Part shown: piece after piece, positions 14,603 to 18,166 of the stretch
Numbering within the stretch: the stretch's first letter is position 1
How the letters are laid out: every line of letters starts with the position of its first letter
DNA from: Lachnospiraceae bacterium
GTDB lineage: Bacteria; Bacillota; Clostridia; Lachnospirales; Lachnospiraceae
Assembly (NCBI GenBank): GCA_017480565.1
Contig: JAFVAL010000064.1
Location: 1-40,166 of the forward strand
Length of the DNA: 40,166 nucleotides
Reading direction: 5' to 3'
Notes under the pieces: generated by a model
Told to the model about the DNA's origin: nothing
What the model saw: only the letters and a program-made list of their open reading frames with translations
Database searches by the model: none
Position numbers and translations under genes: made by a program

Positions 14603-15469
14603 TTAATTTGCACAAAACACATCGATTCCGTTGGCAATGCCTTCGGCGATCTTATCCTGATATTCCTCGGTACCAAGCTTCGCATCTTCCTCCGGATTGC
14701 TCATGTAACCGACCTCCACGATTGTCACCGGCACCGTGCACCAGTTGATTCCGCTCATCGTGTCTGTCTCCCAGACCTTATTCGCACGCGCCCCGGTCGC
14801 TGTAGAAAGCTCATCAAGAATCGCCTTCGAGAGCGCATAGCTCTCTTCATACAGGTCCGCATTCCACGGGTTATTCTTCGTCTGACAAATGGTCATACAT
14901 CCATGCATCGACGTATCTTCCGATCCATCCGCATGAATTCTGACAAATGCATCCGCATTTGCATCATTGGCCATCGCAGCACGCTCCGAGTTTGGAATAT
15001 TTACGTCATGCGTGGTACGCACCATGATCACTTCATAGCCACGCTCTTCCAAAAGCGCCTGCACCTTCTTCGCAAGGATCAGATTCAGCTCGTATTCGTT
15101 CATCTTACTGTACTTGCCGGCAGTGCCGGAGCTGACCTTCTTCTTCGTCTCCTTCGCGCCGGGGCCGATCGGCTCCTTCTCGGAATTGCCCTTCGCCTGA
15201 TGACCCGCATCCAGCACGATCACCTTGCCCGTGCCGATGAGTGTCGTCTCTTCCGTGGTCTCCTCCGTCGTCGTTTCCTCTGTTGTTGTCTCCACGGTCG
15301 TCGTCTCTGTCGTCGTTTCCTTCGTGGTTGTCTCCTCTGTGGTCGTCTCCGTAGAGATCTCCGTCGTTGTCTCAGAGATCGGTGCTTTTCCACCGTCACA
15401 GCCTACGCACGTCGCGATAAATGCAAGCACAAGCATGCACACCAAGAATCGTCTCATCTTACATTTCAT
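14603..15469 (-). CDS. Secreted N-acetylmuramoyl-L-alanine amidase (Amidase_3), lipoprotein
   Basis: A 288-residue cell-wall amidase. The signal peptide ends in a lipobox-like FIATCVGC, with Cys near residue 24. A linker of about 45 residues follows, made almost entirely of ETTT-type repeats. The catalytic domain begins at [11 protein letters not shown] (first Zn ligand His). It continues with a Zn-ligand Glu in [14 protein letters not shown], the third ligand His in FVRIHADGS, and the catalytic Glu in [11 protein letters not shown]. It should cleave the amide bond between MurNAc and the stem peptide. I start at the ATG ending at 15469; an ATG four codons later is an alternative. The promoter at 15523-15551 overlaps the end of the upstream XRE gene. 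Confidence 0.92.
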
Positions 15470-16269: not shown

Positions 16270-16836
16270 CTACTCCTCCGTCAGATCTTCTTCTGCATCC
16301 TTTTCTTCCTGTTTCCAGTCAAACCACCACTTAAGGGCAATGCTGACCGTGGCAGAGATGCTCAGAATTGCAAACAATCCCACAAACCATAACCCACTTG
16401 AAAAGTATTCCTTCATCGGGTACTTCTCTCCAAAGTAGTTGTAATAATTCACGATGTCTTTTAACAACCACACATGAATTCCGATCATTAGAATTGATCC
16501 GATCAATAAAAGAACAAAACCTTTTTCCTTGCTCTGCTTTGTTGAGAGAGCGGCGTCATTCCAGAGATTATAATGAAACATAACGATTACTGCAATCAAC
16601 ATTCCAGCTGCAATAATATGCATGATGTTATTCATCGGAATCGTACCAACGCGGCACAATACAAATACTGCAATAACAACAAAGTATAAGATATAAAAAC
16701 CAATCTTATATGAGATCAACAGGTGTTTTTGCTGCCGTTCATCAGCCTCACCCTCCGTCTCTTTTCTCCGTTTGCTCCCCCAAAGAGACGAAACAAGTCC
16801 GGTAATAAGCAGAAGCAATAGATATTTCCAGTCCAT
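16270..16836 (-). CDS. Small membrane protein, second of three tandem relatives
   Basis: A 188-residue membrane protein. Its start MDWKYLLLLLITGLV is a short anchor, followed by a basic stretch, then GEADERQQKHLLISYKIGFYILYF and further helices. It ends in STVSIALKWWFDWKQEEKDAEED. The region from ADERQ through YKIGFY and the last 25 residues are almost the same as in the gene at 16880, while the middle is diverged. The last 65 bases of strong similarity are identical in DNA (16286-16350 and 16887-16951). AAGGAG six bases before the ATG is the ribosome site. It lies 43 bases after the upstream gene and 7 before the next. Confidence 0.78.
   Translation of the reverse strand: MDWKYLLLLLITGLVSSLWGSKRRKETEGEADERQQKHLLISYKIGFYILYFVVIAVFVLCRVGTIPMNNIMHIIAAGMLIAVIVMFHYNLWNDAALSTKQSKEKGFVLLLIGSILMIGIHVWLLKDIVNYYNYFGEKYPMKEYFSSGLWFVGLFAILSISATVSIALKWWFDWKQEEKDAEEDLTEE
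16286..16350. repeat. 65-bp exact repeat, copy A
   Basis: Identical base for base to 16887-16951. It encodes the C-terminal VSIALKWWFDWKQEEKDAEE part of the 188-residue protein. Flanking sequence differs at once on both sides. Confidence 0.9.
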
Positions 16837-16879: not shown

Positions 16880-17449
16880 TTATCCCTCTTCTTCTGCATC
16901 CTTTTCTTCCTGTTTCCAGTCAAACCACCACTTAAGGGCAATGCTGACCGTAGATGCAAGCAAGAATACACTCAATAGGACGAGATACCAATCTCCATAC
17001 GAGAAGAACTCATTCCAAGAATACTTAAGATCAAAGTAGTTATAATAATCCACATGATCTCTGATCGTAAAGATGGCGAACCCGATACAACCCATGCTTT
17101 CAATGATGTGCCAAAAAAGCAGCTTTTCCTCTCCTTGCCTTGTAGGATACGTTGCATCCTTCCATAGTTTGTAGTGCTCTACTGCCATATACGTAATGAA
17201 GATCCATATAAGCACAACCAAGGCCACTGCTTTCTGAGATGGCTTCCCCGTAATAAACGCACCGATCACGAAGAAGGCCATACACGATAACATATAAAAG
17301 CCGATCTTATAAGAAAGCAGGCGATATCTTTCCTGCCGCTCATCGGCCTCGCCAACCAATTCCTTTCTTCGGTCTTTGCCAGCGAAGGCCATACCTGCAA
17401 TAATCAGGGCTGTTACAAGTAACAAGCCCCAAGAAACTTGTCCGTCCAT
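16880..17449 (-). CDS. Small membrane protein, first of three tandem relatives
   Basis: A 189-residue membrane protein with helices near residues 7-25, 50-68, 75-95, 115-132 and 150-172. GEADERQERYRLLSYKIGFY follows the first helix. It ends in STVSIALKWWFDWKQEEKDAEEEG, as in its neighbour. The ATG ending at 17449 has GGAG exactly six bases upstream and aligns with the start of the 188-residue relative. The frame runs 22 codons further up, but that part is the hairpin-rich leader. It is the first gene of the operon (three membrane proteins, XRE) behind the promoter at 17638-17666 and a leader of about 180 nt with three hairpins. Confidence 0.78.
   Translation of the reverse strand: MDGQVSWGLLLVTALIIAGMAFAGKDRRKELVGEADERQERYRLLSYKIGFYMLSCMAFFVIGAFITGKPSQKAVALVVLIWIFITYMAVEHYKLWKDATYPTRQGEEKLLFWHIIESMGCIGFAIFTIRDHVDYYNYFDLKYSWNEFFSYGDWYLVLLSVFLLASTVSIALKWWFDWKQEEKDAEEEG
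16887..16951. repeat. 65-bp exact repeat, copy B
   Basis: Identical to 16286-16350. It encodes the same C-terminal segment in the 189-residue protein. Confidence 0.9.
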
Positions 17450-17455
17450 ACTACT

Positions 17456-17590
17456 CTCCATTCCGGAGCGTTTTACGCGACGAGGTGATGAGAAATTGCA
17501 AGTGCAATTTCTCATCTGCCATCAGGTCTATTTGTGACGCTCCGGCACAAATAGACAGTGACGAAAAATGCATATCAATGCATTTTTCAC
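17456..17590 (-). promoter_or_regulatory. Three-hairpin leader with possible pseudoknot at the ribosome site
   Basis: In minus-strand order the leader has: an 11-bp hairpin (17563-17573 with 17578-17588); an 11-bp hairpin GTCTATTTGTG/CACAAATAGAC (17526-17536 with 17546-17556); a 14-bp hairpin (17487-17500 with 17503-17516); then the segment 17463-17471, then the GGAG ribosome site (17456-17459). The nine loop bases of the second hairpin, 17537-17545, are the exact complement of 17463-17471. That same segment contains CTCC, which can pair with the GGAG ribosome site across five bases. Loop pairing and ribosome-site pairing would exclude each other, which looks like a translational switch. All pairings are read directly; the function is inferred. 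Confidence 0.6.
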
Positions 17591-17637
17591 ACTTCCCTCC
17601 CACACAGTTTCATATCACATTCGAAGCTTCTATCTAT

Positions 17638-17666
17638 ATACTATCTTTTGCCTTACATTTTGTCAA
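17638..17666 (-). promoter_or_regulatory. Promoter of the membrane-protein/XRE operon
   Basis: Consensus TTGACA (17661-17666), a 17-base spacer and TAGTAT (17638-17643) on the minus strand. The predicted start is near 17630. Confidence 0.7.
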
Positions 17667-17685
17667 TTATATTTTACATTTTGTC
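17653..17685. promoter_or_regulatory. Paired direct repeats, candidate XRE operators
   Basis: TTACATTTTGTC occurs at 17653-17664 and again at 17674-17685, exactly 21 bases apart, or two helical turns. The first copy overlaps the -35 box. Same-face direct repeats over a -35 box are a common layout for a repressor site. The likely binder is the XRE protein at 15548. Confidence 0.5.
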
Positions 17686-17690
17686 GATGC

Positions 17691-18166
17691 CTATGGTTTT
17701 CTCATCTAATCTTTTTCTCACGATTTTTCTAAACTTGATCCACATTCCACAATTTCGAGACGTCAGATCAAGTCGTCTCACGCTTGCTTAAGCTTGTTTT
17801 ATCTAAGAGGTCATATTCTTTAAAACAGGATCAAAGCCGCTTTGCGCGGCTTGATCCTGTTTTAAGAAAAACTATTCTGTTGGATAAACAAGCCCTCTCA
17901 GACTATACTCTAGCTTTATCTTTACAGGACGTTTTAGTGAAAAAGATCAATTTCGCCAAACACACTGCGACAAGATTGATCCAAAAGAACAAAACCACGC
18001 CAACAAGATAAAAAAGCCTCAGAGGACGCCCCATCACACAGCAAGTACGCCCAAAGGATGCCCCCACCCACAGCCAATAATCCCAAAGAAACCTCAAAAC
18101 CGAGGCCAAAAGCCCCCACGCAAAAAGAGCACCTTGCCCTCACGAACAAGATGCCCTCTTCACTTT
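17691..18166. other. Intergenic region without a confident gene
   Basis: This stretch holds a 20-bp hairpin (17820-17865, listed separately), a GAGACG/CGTCTC dyad near 17755-17777 and a G-rich minus strand. Two overlapping minus-strand frames (17903-18109 and 17934-18203) are hydrophobic but start from TTG or GTG-like codons without a ribosome site and have unusual Cys/Trp/Phe-rich composition. I do not accept them as genes. A decayed membrane-protein gene is possible. Confidence 0.5.
17820..17865. terminator. Long hairpin, probable bidirectional terminator
   Basis: A 15-bp perfect stem (17820-17834 with 17851-17865), one bulged A, a further 5 bp (GCCGC/GCGGC) and a 5-nt loop. The outer stem starts with TTAAAA and ends TTTTAA, so either strand reads a GC core followed by T-rich bases. 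It lies 300 nt past the 60-residue gene. Confidence 0.6.

Follow-up and report, generated by a model that had tools for sequence, protein, structure and literature searches.

The three-hairpin leader upstream of a membrane protein gene in the window (the whole 40,166-nucleotide stretch of Lachnospiraceae DNA that was analysed) belongs to a dispersed, apparently undescribed repeat family of gut Lachnospiraceae. The repeat is probably, though far from certainly, a non-autonomous mobile and structured 5'-UTR element of this family and a neighbouring one, aimed at ribosome sites. Its copies have sense orientation and occupy the short gap that separates the ribosome site of a gene from the start codon. 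Since the element's own 3' end is a ribosome site, normally spaced from the ATG, the gene stays translatable. Covariation among copies shows a predicted fold of three hairpins, P1 to P3, in which the 3' strand (of the CGCUCCGG type) can pair either with the loop of P2 or within a fourth hairpin, P4. The copy in the window has the following parts:

17638..17666, minus strand: promoter-like TTGACA-17-TAGTAT (consensus scan only)
17446..17601, minus strand: whole repeat match (model R2, 163.4 bits, E 2.2e-43), from an upstream ribosome-site-like stretch through the start codon
17593..17601, minus strand: GGGAGGGAA, probable older ribosome site upstream of the insertion, as suggested by empty sites elsewhere
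17557..17593, minus strand: hairpin P1, 16 pairs as 12+4 with one bulge
17526..17556, minus strand: hairpin P2, 11 pairs (17556-17546 with 17536-17526)
17537..17545, minus strand: P2 loop CCGGAGCGT, 5' side of the pseudoknot (pairing and covariation)
17487..17516, minus strand: hairpin P3, 13 pairs with a 4-nt loop (covariation)
17463..17483, minus strand: competing hairpin P4 (TCG..GCG / CGC..CGG; covariation), with one T-G pair in this copy
17463..17471, minus strand: 3' strand ACGCTCCGG, which can pair with the P2 loop or form the 3' side of P4 (covariation)
17456..17459, minus strand: GGAG, the repeat's own ribosome site, at its 3' end (sequence and copy alignment)
17447..17449, minus strand: ATG of the DUF6442 membrane protein gene (16880-17449)

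The initial annotation described loop 17537-17545 as the exact complement of 17463-17471, beside GGAG and ATG, and these coordinates hold on the minus strand. By hand estimate, a complement matching all nine bases would arise by chance in the roughly 70 nt downstream about 3 times in 10,000. The flanking hairpins were given 11 and 14 pairs; an 11-pair stem exists but belongs to the middle hairpin P2, and P3 reaches 14 pairs only if a 2-nt loop is allowed. The leader has a folding energy of -77.4 kcal/mol against -50.9 kcal/mol for shuffled sequences (z -6.41), and none of 200 shuffles is as low.

If the promoter-like site at 17666-17638 is used, the three-hairpin segment would be a 5' UTR; the consensus scan that found it gives 11 sites in the region against 6.6 expected. 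A 12-base direct repeat, GACAAAATGTAA, surrounds the -35 box of this site (17655-17690, minus strand) and is a possible operator. A long perfect palindrome around AAAACAGGATCAA...TTGATCCTGTTTT (17817-17866) lies between a small HTH/membrane gene pair and the leader, and is probably a two-way terminator. Downstream, the DUF6442 gene is followed by two small membrane-type ORFs, which match no Pfam family above cut-off, and then by an HTH_3 regulator. The membrane protein genes at 16270-16836 and 16880-17449 (minus strand) share the near-identical C-terminus TVSIALKWWFDWKQEEKDAEE and therefore look like a tandem duplication.

A search with the leader as query finds nine copies of a repeat of about 140 nt in the same genome: the window copy, seven others that are 86-94% identical to it, and a diverged one with 83% identity over 100 bases. 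The common unit ends like CGCTCCGGAATGGAGATTA directly before ATG. A covariance model built from these nine copies (R1) finds the repeat in 43 of the 299 genomes of the family, own genome counted; scoring covered at most ten places in each genome, a ceiling that many genomes reached. A second model (R2), built from 92 copies, detects it in 33 of the 392 genomes of the order: five belong to a second family and the other 28 to the same family. One genome of the same genus gives no blastn match, yet has five matches to R1. The P2 pattern occurs in at least 118 stretches of named species genomes; among the matches listed are records of Lachnospiraceae, Acetatifactor, Roseburia, Eisenbergiella, Lachnospira, Eubacterium and others. 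Copy number can be high: two Eisenbergiella genomes each give 38 matches to a one-copy query, including fragments and a few flank matches, and R1 finds 28 copies in the 248 kb examined of genome G306. Plasmid and phage records contain no blastn match to the window copy at E 0.1, and viral contigs contain no exact match to the P2 core.

The copy sets used below were assembled in steps. From 111 matches, 84 were kept, after removal of one duplicate and of 26 scoring under 36 bits, most of which were antisense shadows of palindromes. From a further 78 matches, 52 were added by hand, leaving out duplicates already included, weak matches and most copies cut by contig ends, and the combined set holds 135 distinct copies. 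The set of 204 copies was reached after 75 more had been dropped for want of a clear P1 or anchor. The alignment A3 comprises 86 chosen loci at E <=1e-14, in 92 rows.

Several loci show variations on the repeat. Tandem copies, in which one element starts right after the ribosome site of another, are found at L088, L093 and L061. In Eisenbergiella genome G302, two element sequence classes lie 13 kb apart on L250 (1830-1979 and near 14947-15121), with the 3' strands CGCTTCGG and CGCTCCGG. At L192, L169, L182 and L125 there is an extra hairpin between or inside P1-P4; the element thus tolerates added hairpins. G306 also carries a second dispersed repeat of about 135 bases (L302:8071-8209), hairpin-rich and terminator-like, with about 20 places in its relative G307 at 88-99% identity to the L302 query.

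Placement was examined on copies picked by the P2 core alone, which avoids the bias of models that include the 3' end. P2 cores with 260 nt readable downstream number 109, and the 3' core is kept in 103. An ATG opening an ORF of at least 40 aa lies 10-14 nt past the 3' core in 84/103, compared with 785/23,600 random positions (3.3%). Some start codon within 8-22 nt is found in 96/103 against 483/2,060 random positions (23%), and is absent from the remaining 7/103. In the genome of the window, eight of the nine copies precede an ORF; at the ninth (contig C74, 16299), an ATG is followed immediately by a stop.

The genes behind the copies are unrelated. Clustering of the 186 downstream proteins behind 204 copies gives 163 clusters, none with more than six members. 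Own-genome downstream genes belong by Pfam to LysR-type HTH, AraC, MFS_2, Flp1_like, DUF4446 and desulfoferrodoxin families, with one lacking a family; elsewhere, the proteins presumably include release factor 1, S-adenosylmethionine synthetase and a tRNA synthetase, which were named by eye. The leader is not dedicated to the membrane-protein/XRE operon to which it was assigned initially; it is one copy of a mobile repeat found before unrelated genes. A same-strand gene ends at most 200 nt before the copy in 139 of 197 cases, so most copies seem to lie inside transcription units; 20 have a divergent neighbour and 38 have neither. At the upstream ribosome site, 39 of 204 copies have no start codon; in 127 the frame opened there meets a stop inside the element, and 38 read through. 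The frames vary greatly in length, so that coding of a leader peptide is not supported.

Mobility is indicated by two clean orthologous empty sites, which show insertion between a native ribosome site and the start codon. In Eisenbergiella G299, the filled site reads GGAAGAGGATA, then the element (GTGTGA...GGAATGGGGATTA), then GAATG; the relative G300 carries GGAAGAGGATGATAGCATG there and has no element, and the flanks are 88-90% identical. Five further genomes have the orthologous gene without the element, with diverged upstream sequence. GGAATGGAGGATTA and TTATG flank the element in G306; the corresponding G307 site, GGAATGGAGGATTAGTATG, is empty, and matching stretches of the two genomes are 94-97% identical. 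What stands at the empty G307 site is the 3' end of an older copy. Three other G306 copies lie in stretches that G307 matches unbroken, two of them aligned base by base. The difference at L302:15009 between these two genomes was rejected as a clean empty site; it is probably a G307 deletion across CAGAA. In G302, the element is upstream of the release factor 1 gene and three relatives lack it, with diverged flanks; one of the three, G305, ends in a stretch resembling a leftover 3' end. In the genus of G585, relatives are too diverged and no empty sites were obtained.

The junction TTA|G recurs in the clean empty-site comparisons. The left-flank stretch often repeats the ribosome site on the right of the element. 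Among 76 copies (drawn from 84, the eight lacking the anchor motif being left out), the longest common substring of a copy's own flanks averages 5.70, against 4.85 in shuffles and a maximum of 5.34 in 500. Within genomes, 36/144 copies have 7-8 of 8 flank letters matching, against 17.0 expected and a maximum of 25. Examples are GAGGCATA (L089), GAGGACA (L096) and GGAGACCA (L320). The two clean empty sites have no exact duplication: the native site is on the left, and the right-hand site resembles that of the subfamily. Over all copies, the right-hand ribosome site follows the element class. Some copies thus look target-duplicated, and others look as if the element brought its ribosome site. 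Strict target duplication is favoured by the flank similarity but weakened by the empty sites, in which the right site seems element-borne.

The ends, read from the copies as GTGTGAAAAA... and ...CGCTCCGGAAT, are not inverted repeats of each other, and no terminal inverted repeats are seen. An HMM scan of 272 copies finds 218 full, 49 lacking 5' positions, one lacking 3' positions and four lacking both. One 5'-short copy, at L164, has AAAAGAGGTTA on both sides. This 5'-skewed truncation is suggestive of reverse transcription; the same skew would result if selection kept the 3' ribosome site and other hairpins replaced P1. No autonomous, ORF-bearing version is seen among 121 P2 cores. A 3' core follows within 260 nt in 108 of these; five of the other 13 end at a locus edge, L127 runs into masked letters and the rest show no inserted ORF by eye.

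Alignment A3 was fitted to R1 and so leans towards the R1 hairpins; the pseudoknot and P4 pairs are absent from that model. Across its 92 copies, 97.4% of the cells of the 40 hairpin pairs are standard pairs. Both sides change in 34/40 pairs (16/16 in P1, 7/11 in P2), and doubly changed cells number 764 against 229.8 in shuffles. RNAalifold's own prediction has 42 pairs, 35 with compensatory changes. Stem cells outside Watson-Crick pairing are G-U in 87 cases, A-C in 36 and other in 56; such an asymmetry of G-U over A-C is expected for sense RNA, and alignment bias may add to it.

The pairing of the P2 loop with the 3' strand covaries, as an annotator working from the window alone had proposed to check. 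Its cells are paired in 93.9% of cases against 84.5% in shuffles, and 76 are doubly changed against 23.1, with 0/500 shuffles as high for either; slid controls are 20-48% paired. Six of its pairs have a double change, a modest excess (44/500 shuffles as high). Free of alignment, the mean loop-partner run is 7.82, against 6.64 and a maximum of 6.92 with shuffled partners. Loop and partner variants include CCGGAGCGT/ACGCTCCGG, CTGAGCGA/TCGCTCAG, CCGAGAACGT/ACGTTCTCGG and others; the loops CCGGAGCGT, CCGGAGCGC, CTGAGCGA, CTGAGCAA, CCGAAGCGT and CCGAGAACGT are all matched by their complement in some copies. In loops of 7-10 nt, complementarity often spans the whole loop, and 10/92 rows have runs of just 4 or 5. 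Pairing of every base in such a loop may still be sterically limited, as the initial annotation cautioned. Conservation of loop and partner in 92 copies excludes chance.

P4, which is mutually exclusive with the pseudoknot, also covaries. Its cells are paired in 87.6% of cases against 78.8% in shuffles, with 58 doubly changed against 20.4 (0/500 as high for both). Five P4 pairs have changes on both sides (17/500 shuffles as high), and the number of P4 pair types is not above shuffles (158/500 as high).

The third pairing, sequestration of GGAG by CTCC as the initial annotation proposed, is not supported. In a fixed register this hairpin has no column covariation, and 499/500 shuffles pair at least as well. 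A register-free comparison of 204 copies gives a weak excess (3.49 against 3.36, maximum of 500 shuffles 3.47) but none within genomes (56/500 shuffles as high). Partner and ribosome-site types do go together: CTCC-type partners carry GGAG or GGAGG in 97/124 copies, and CTCA-type partners carry GAGG in 22/35. In G306 and G307 jointly, GAGG accompanies 8/18 CTCA-type and 0/14 other partners, some of these being shared copies. The calculated energies are -16.9 kcal/mol for the loop duplex before any pseudoknot penalty, -5.3 for P4 and -4.9 for the CUCC:GGAG hairpin; they allow the pseudoknot and P4 to occupy the CUCC-like strand, and do not decide the matter.

In the favoured reading of a mobile element aimed at ribosome sites, the pseudoknot and P4 would each keep the CUCC-like strand off the new ribosome site, leaving that site open. 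Insertion would then be tolerable even before essential genes. This masking idea is weakened by the CUCC:GGAG pairing it guards against, which does not covary. Exchange between P4 and the pseudoknot, or with the weak CUCC:GGAG hairpin, could tune translation, and regulation by the element is possible. An enzyme acting in trans would move the element, possibly through an RNA intermediate.

Among other readings, an ordinary DNA element is a serious candidate that stops short of being probable. A transposase or site-specific recombinase would recognise the folded ends, and the ribosome site would be a mere target motif. Small, strongly folded interspersed repeats are common in bacteria, and the recurrent junction is in keeping with such an enzyme. 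Terminal inverted repeats are nevertheless lacking, G-U exceeds A-C in the stems, and the pseudoknot and P4 both covary, although a DNA end would not need both. Lack of terminal inverted repeats, sense-only placement at ribosome sites, above-chance flank duplication and RNA-like pairing asymmetry would all suit a SINE-like retroposed RNA, whose transcript is reverse-transcribed into targets while its ribosome site pairs with the complement of the target's ribosome site. The 5' positions missing from 49/272 copies (3' positions from one) and the L164 repeat suit it too, but 3'-site selection with P1 replacement would yield the same asymmetry, and the empty sites have no clean duplication; retroposition is a tentative idea on the unlikely side. 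Its fullest version, also speculative and rather doubtful, is a bacterial SINE counterpart: an RNA of about 140 nt, spread by reverse transcription, which would locate targets by base-pairing of its own ribosome site, re-create such a site at the gene it enters and carry a pseudoknot/P4 module able to set translation.

A true translational switch is unlikely. In such a switch, loop pairing would free GGAG and its loss would let CTCC sequester the site in response to a signal, the copies being a spread regulatory module. Two mutually exclusive, covarying pairings and the agreement of partner type with ribosome-site type speak for it, but the sequestration itself does not covary and the downstream genes are unrelated. 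The switch proposed initially survives best in a modified form, as a self-neutralising insertion in which P4/pseudoknot exchange possibly regulates. It is very unlikely that the element is a guide scaffold like omega-RNA or bridge RNA that serves a nuclease or recombinase in trans; the hairpins and pseudoknot beside a site boundary recall such RNAs, and against it there is no Rfam match. Position in a 5' UTR and a conserved fold would also be expected of a riboswitch or regulon leader common to functionally linked genes. The 163 clusters among 186 downstream proteins (largest 6) and the LysR-, AraC-, MFS-, Flp1-like-, DUF4446- and desulfoferrodoxin genes behind own-genome copies make this hardly credible; no such linkage was found.

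The initial annotation knew of no RNA class with this layout, and Rfam release 15 agrees: at gathering score neither the window nor any of six further loci with copies is matched, and a relaxed scan of 17400-17700 gives a single match at chance level (E 3.2). With GTGTG, the 5' end recalls the start of a group II intron; these letters vary among copies with compensatory changes, and no group II intron domain is matched by Rfam in the window or the same six loci. Ribosome sites controlled by pseudoknots are known from ribosomal protein leaders and from SAM-II and preQ1-II riboswitches. The repeat is like these in form, a hairpin loop pairing with a strand at the ribosome site, and loop and 3' strand covary here; unlike them, it has no known conserved ligand pocket or gene class. 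MITEs are likewise short, non-autonomous and dispersed, and the repeat resembles them further in being present or absent between relatives. It differs in having no terminal inverted repeats and in its RNA-level covariation, which includes a pseudoknot.

No description of the repeat family was found in the open-access literature, a body that holds few of the subscription papers and preprints. In a MITE review (PMC10969869), a term search gives no hit for Shine-Dalgarno, ribosome binding, start codon or bcr1. The bcr1-bcr3 repeats of the Bacillus cereus group are described, in the part of the source seen, as high-copy and MITE-like, often in UTRs or intra-operon intergenic regions (PMC3446304). 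By that partial account and by features rather than by sequence comparison, the present repeat differs in lacking terminal inverted repeats, in being aimed at and ending in a ribosome site, and in spanning genera of one family plus a second family. BOX and RUP of Streptococcus pneumoniae appear, in the excerpts available, as short dispersed repeats that fold strongly as RNA and are transcribed together with genes; their terminal inverted repeats pair with each other, whereas here the ends are unpaired and the distance to the start codon is fixed (PMC3049150). Candidate structured RNAs of gut Clostridia, known here from parts of two reports (PMC2864571, PMC8040213), are likewise covarying RNAs in gut bacteria. 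The repeat differs in having no Rfam match; it may be an unnamed entry in the supplementary lists of PMC8040213.

Annotators may mistake the repeat for leader ORFs or N-terminal extensions. A pseudoknot conserved at the ribosome site can be tested directly, and the enzyme that mobilises the element may represent a new system of site-directed insertion. If the element is aimed at ribosome sites, genomes could alter many 5' UTRs, in front of unrelated and even essential genes, and leave those genes intact. Such an element may set expression levels across gut Lachnospiraceae.
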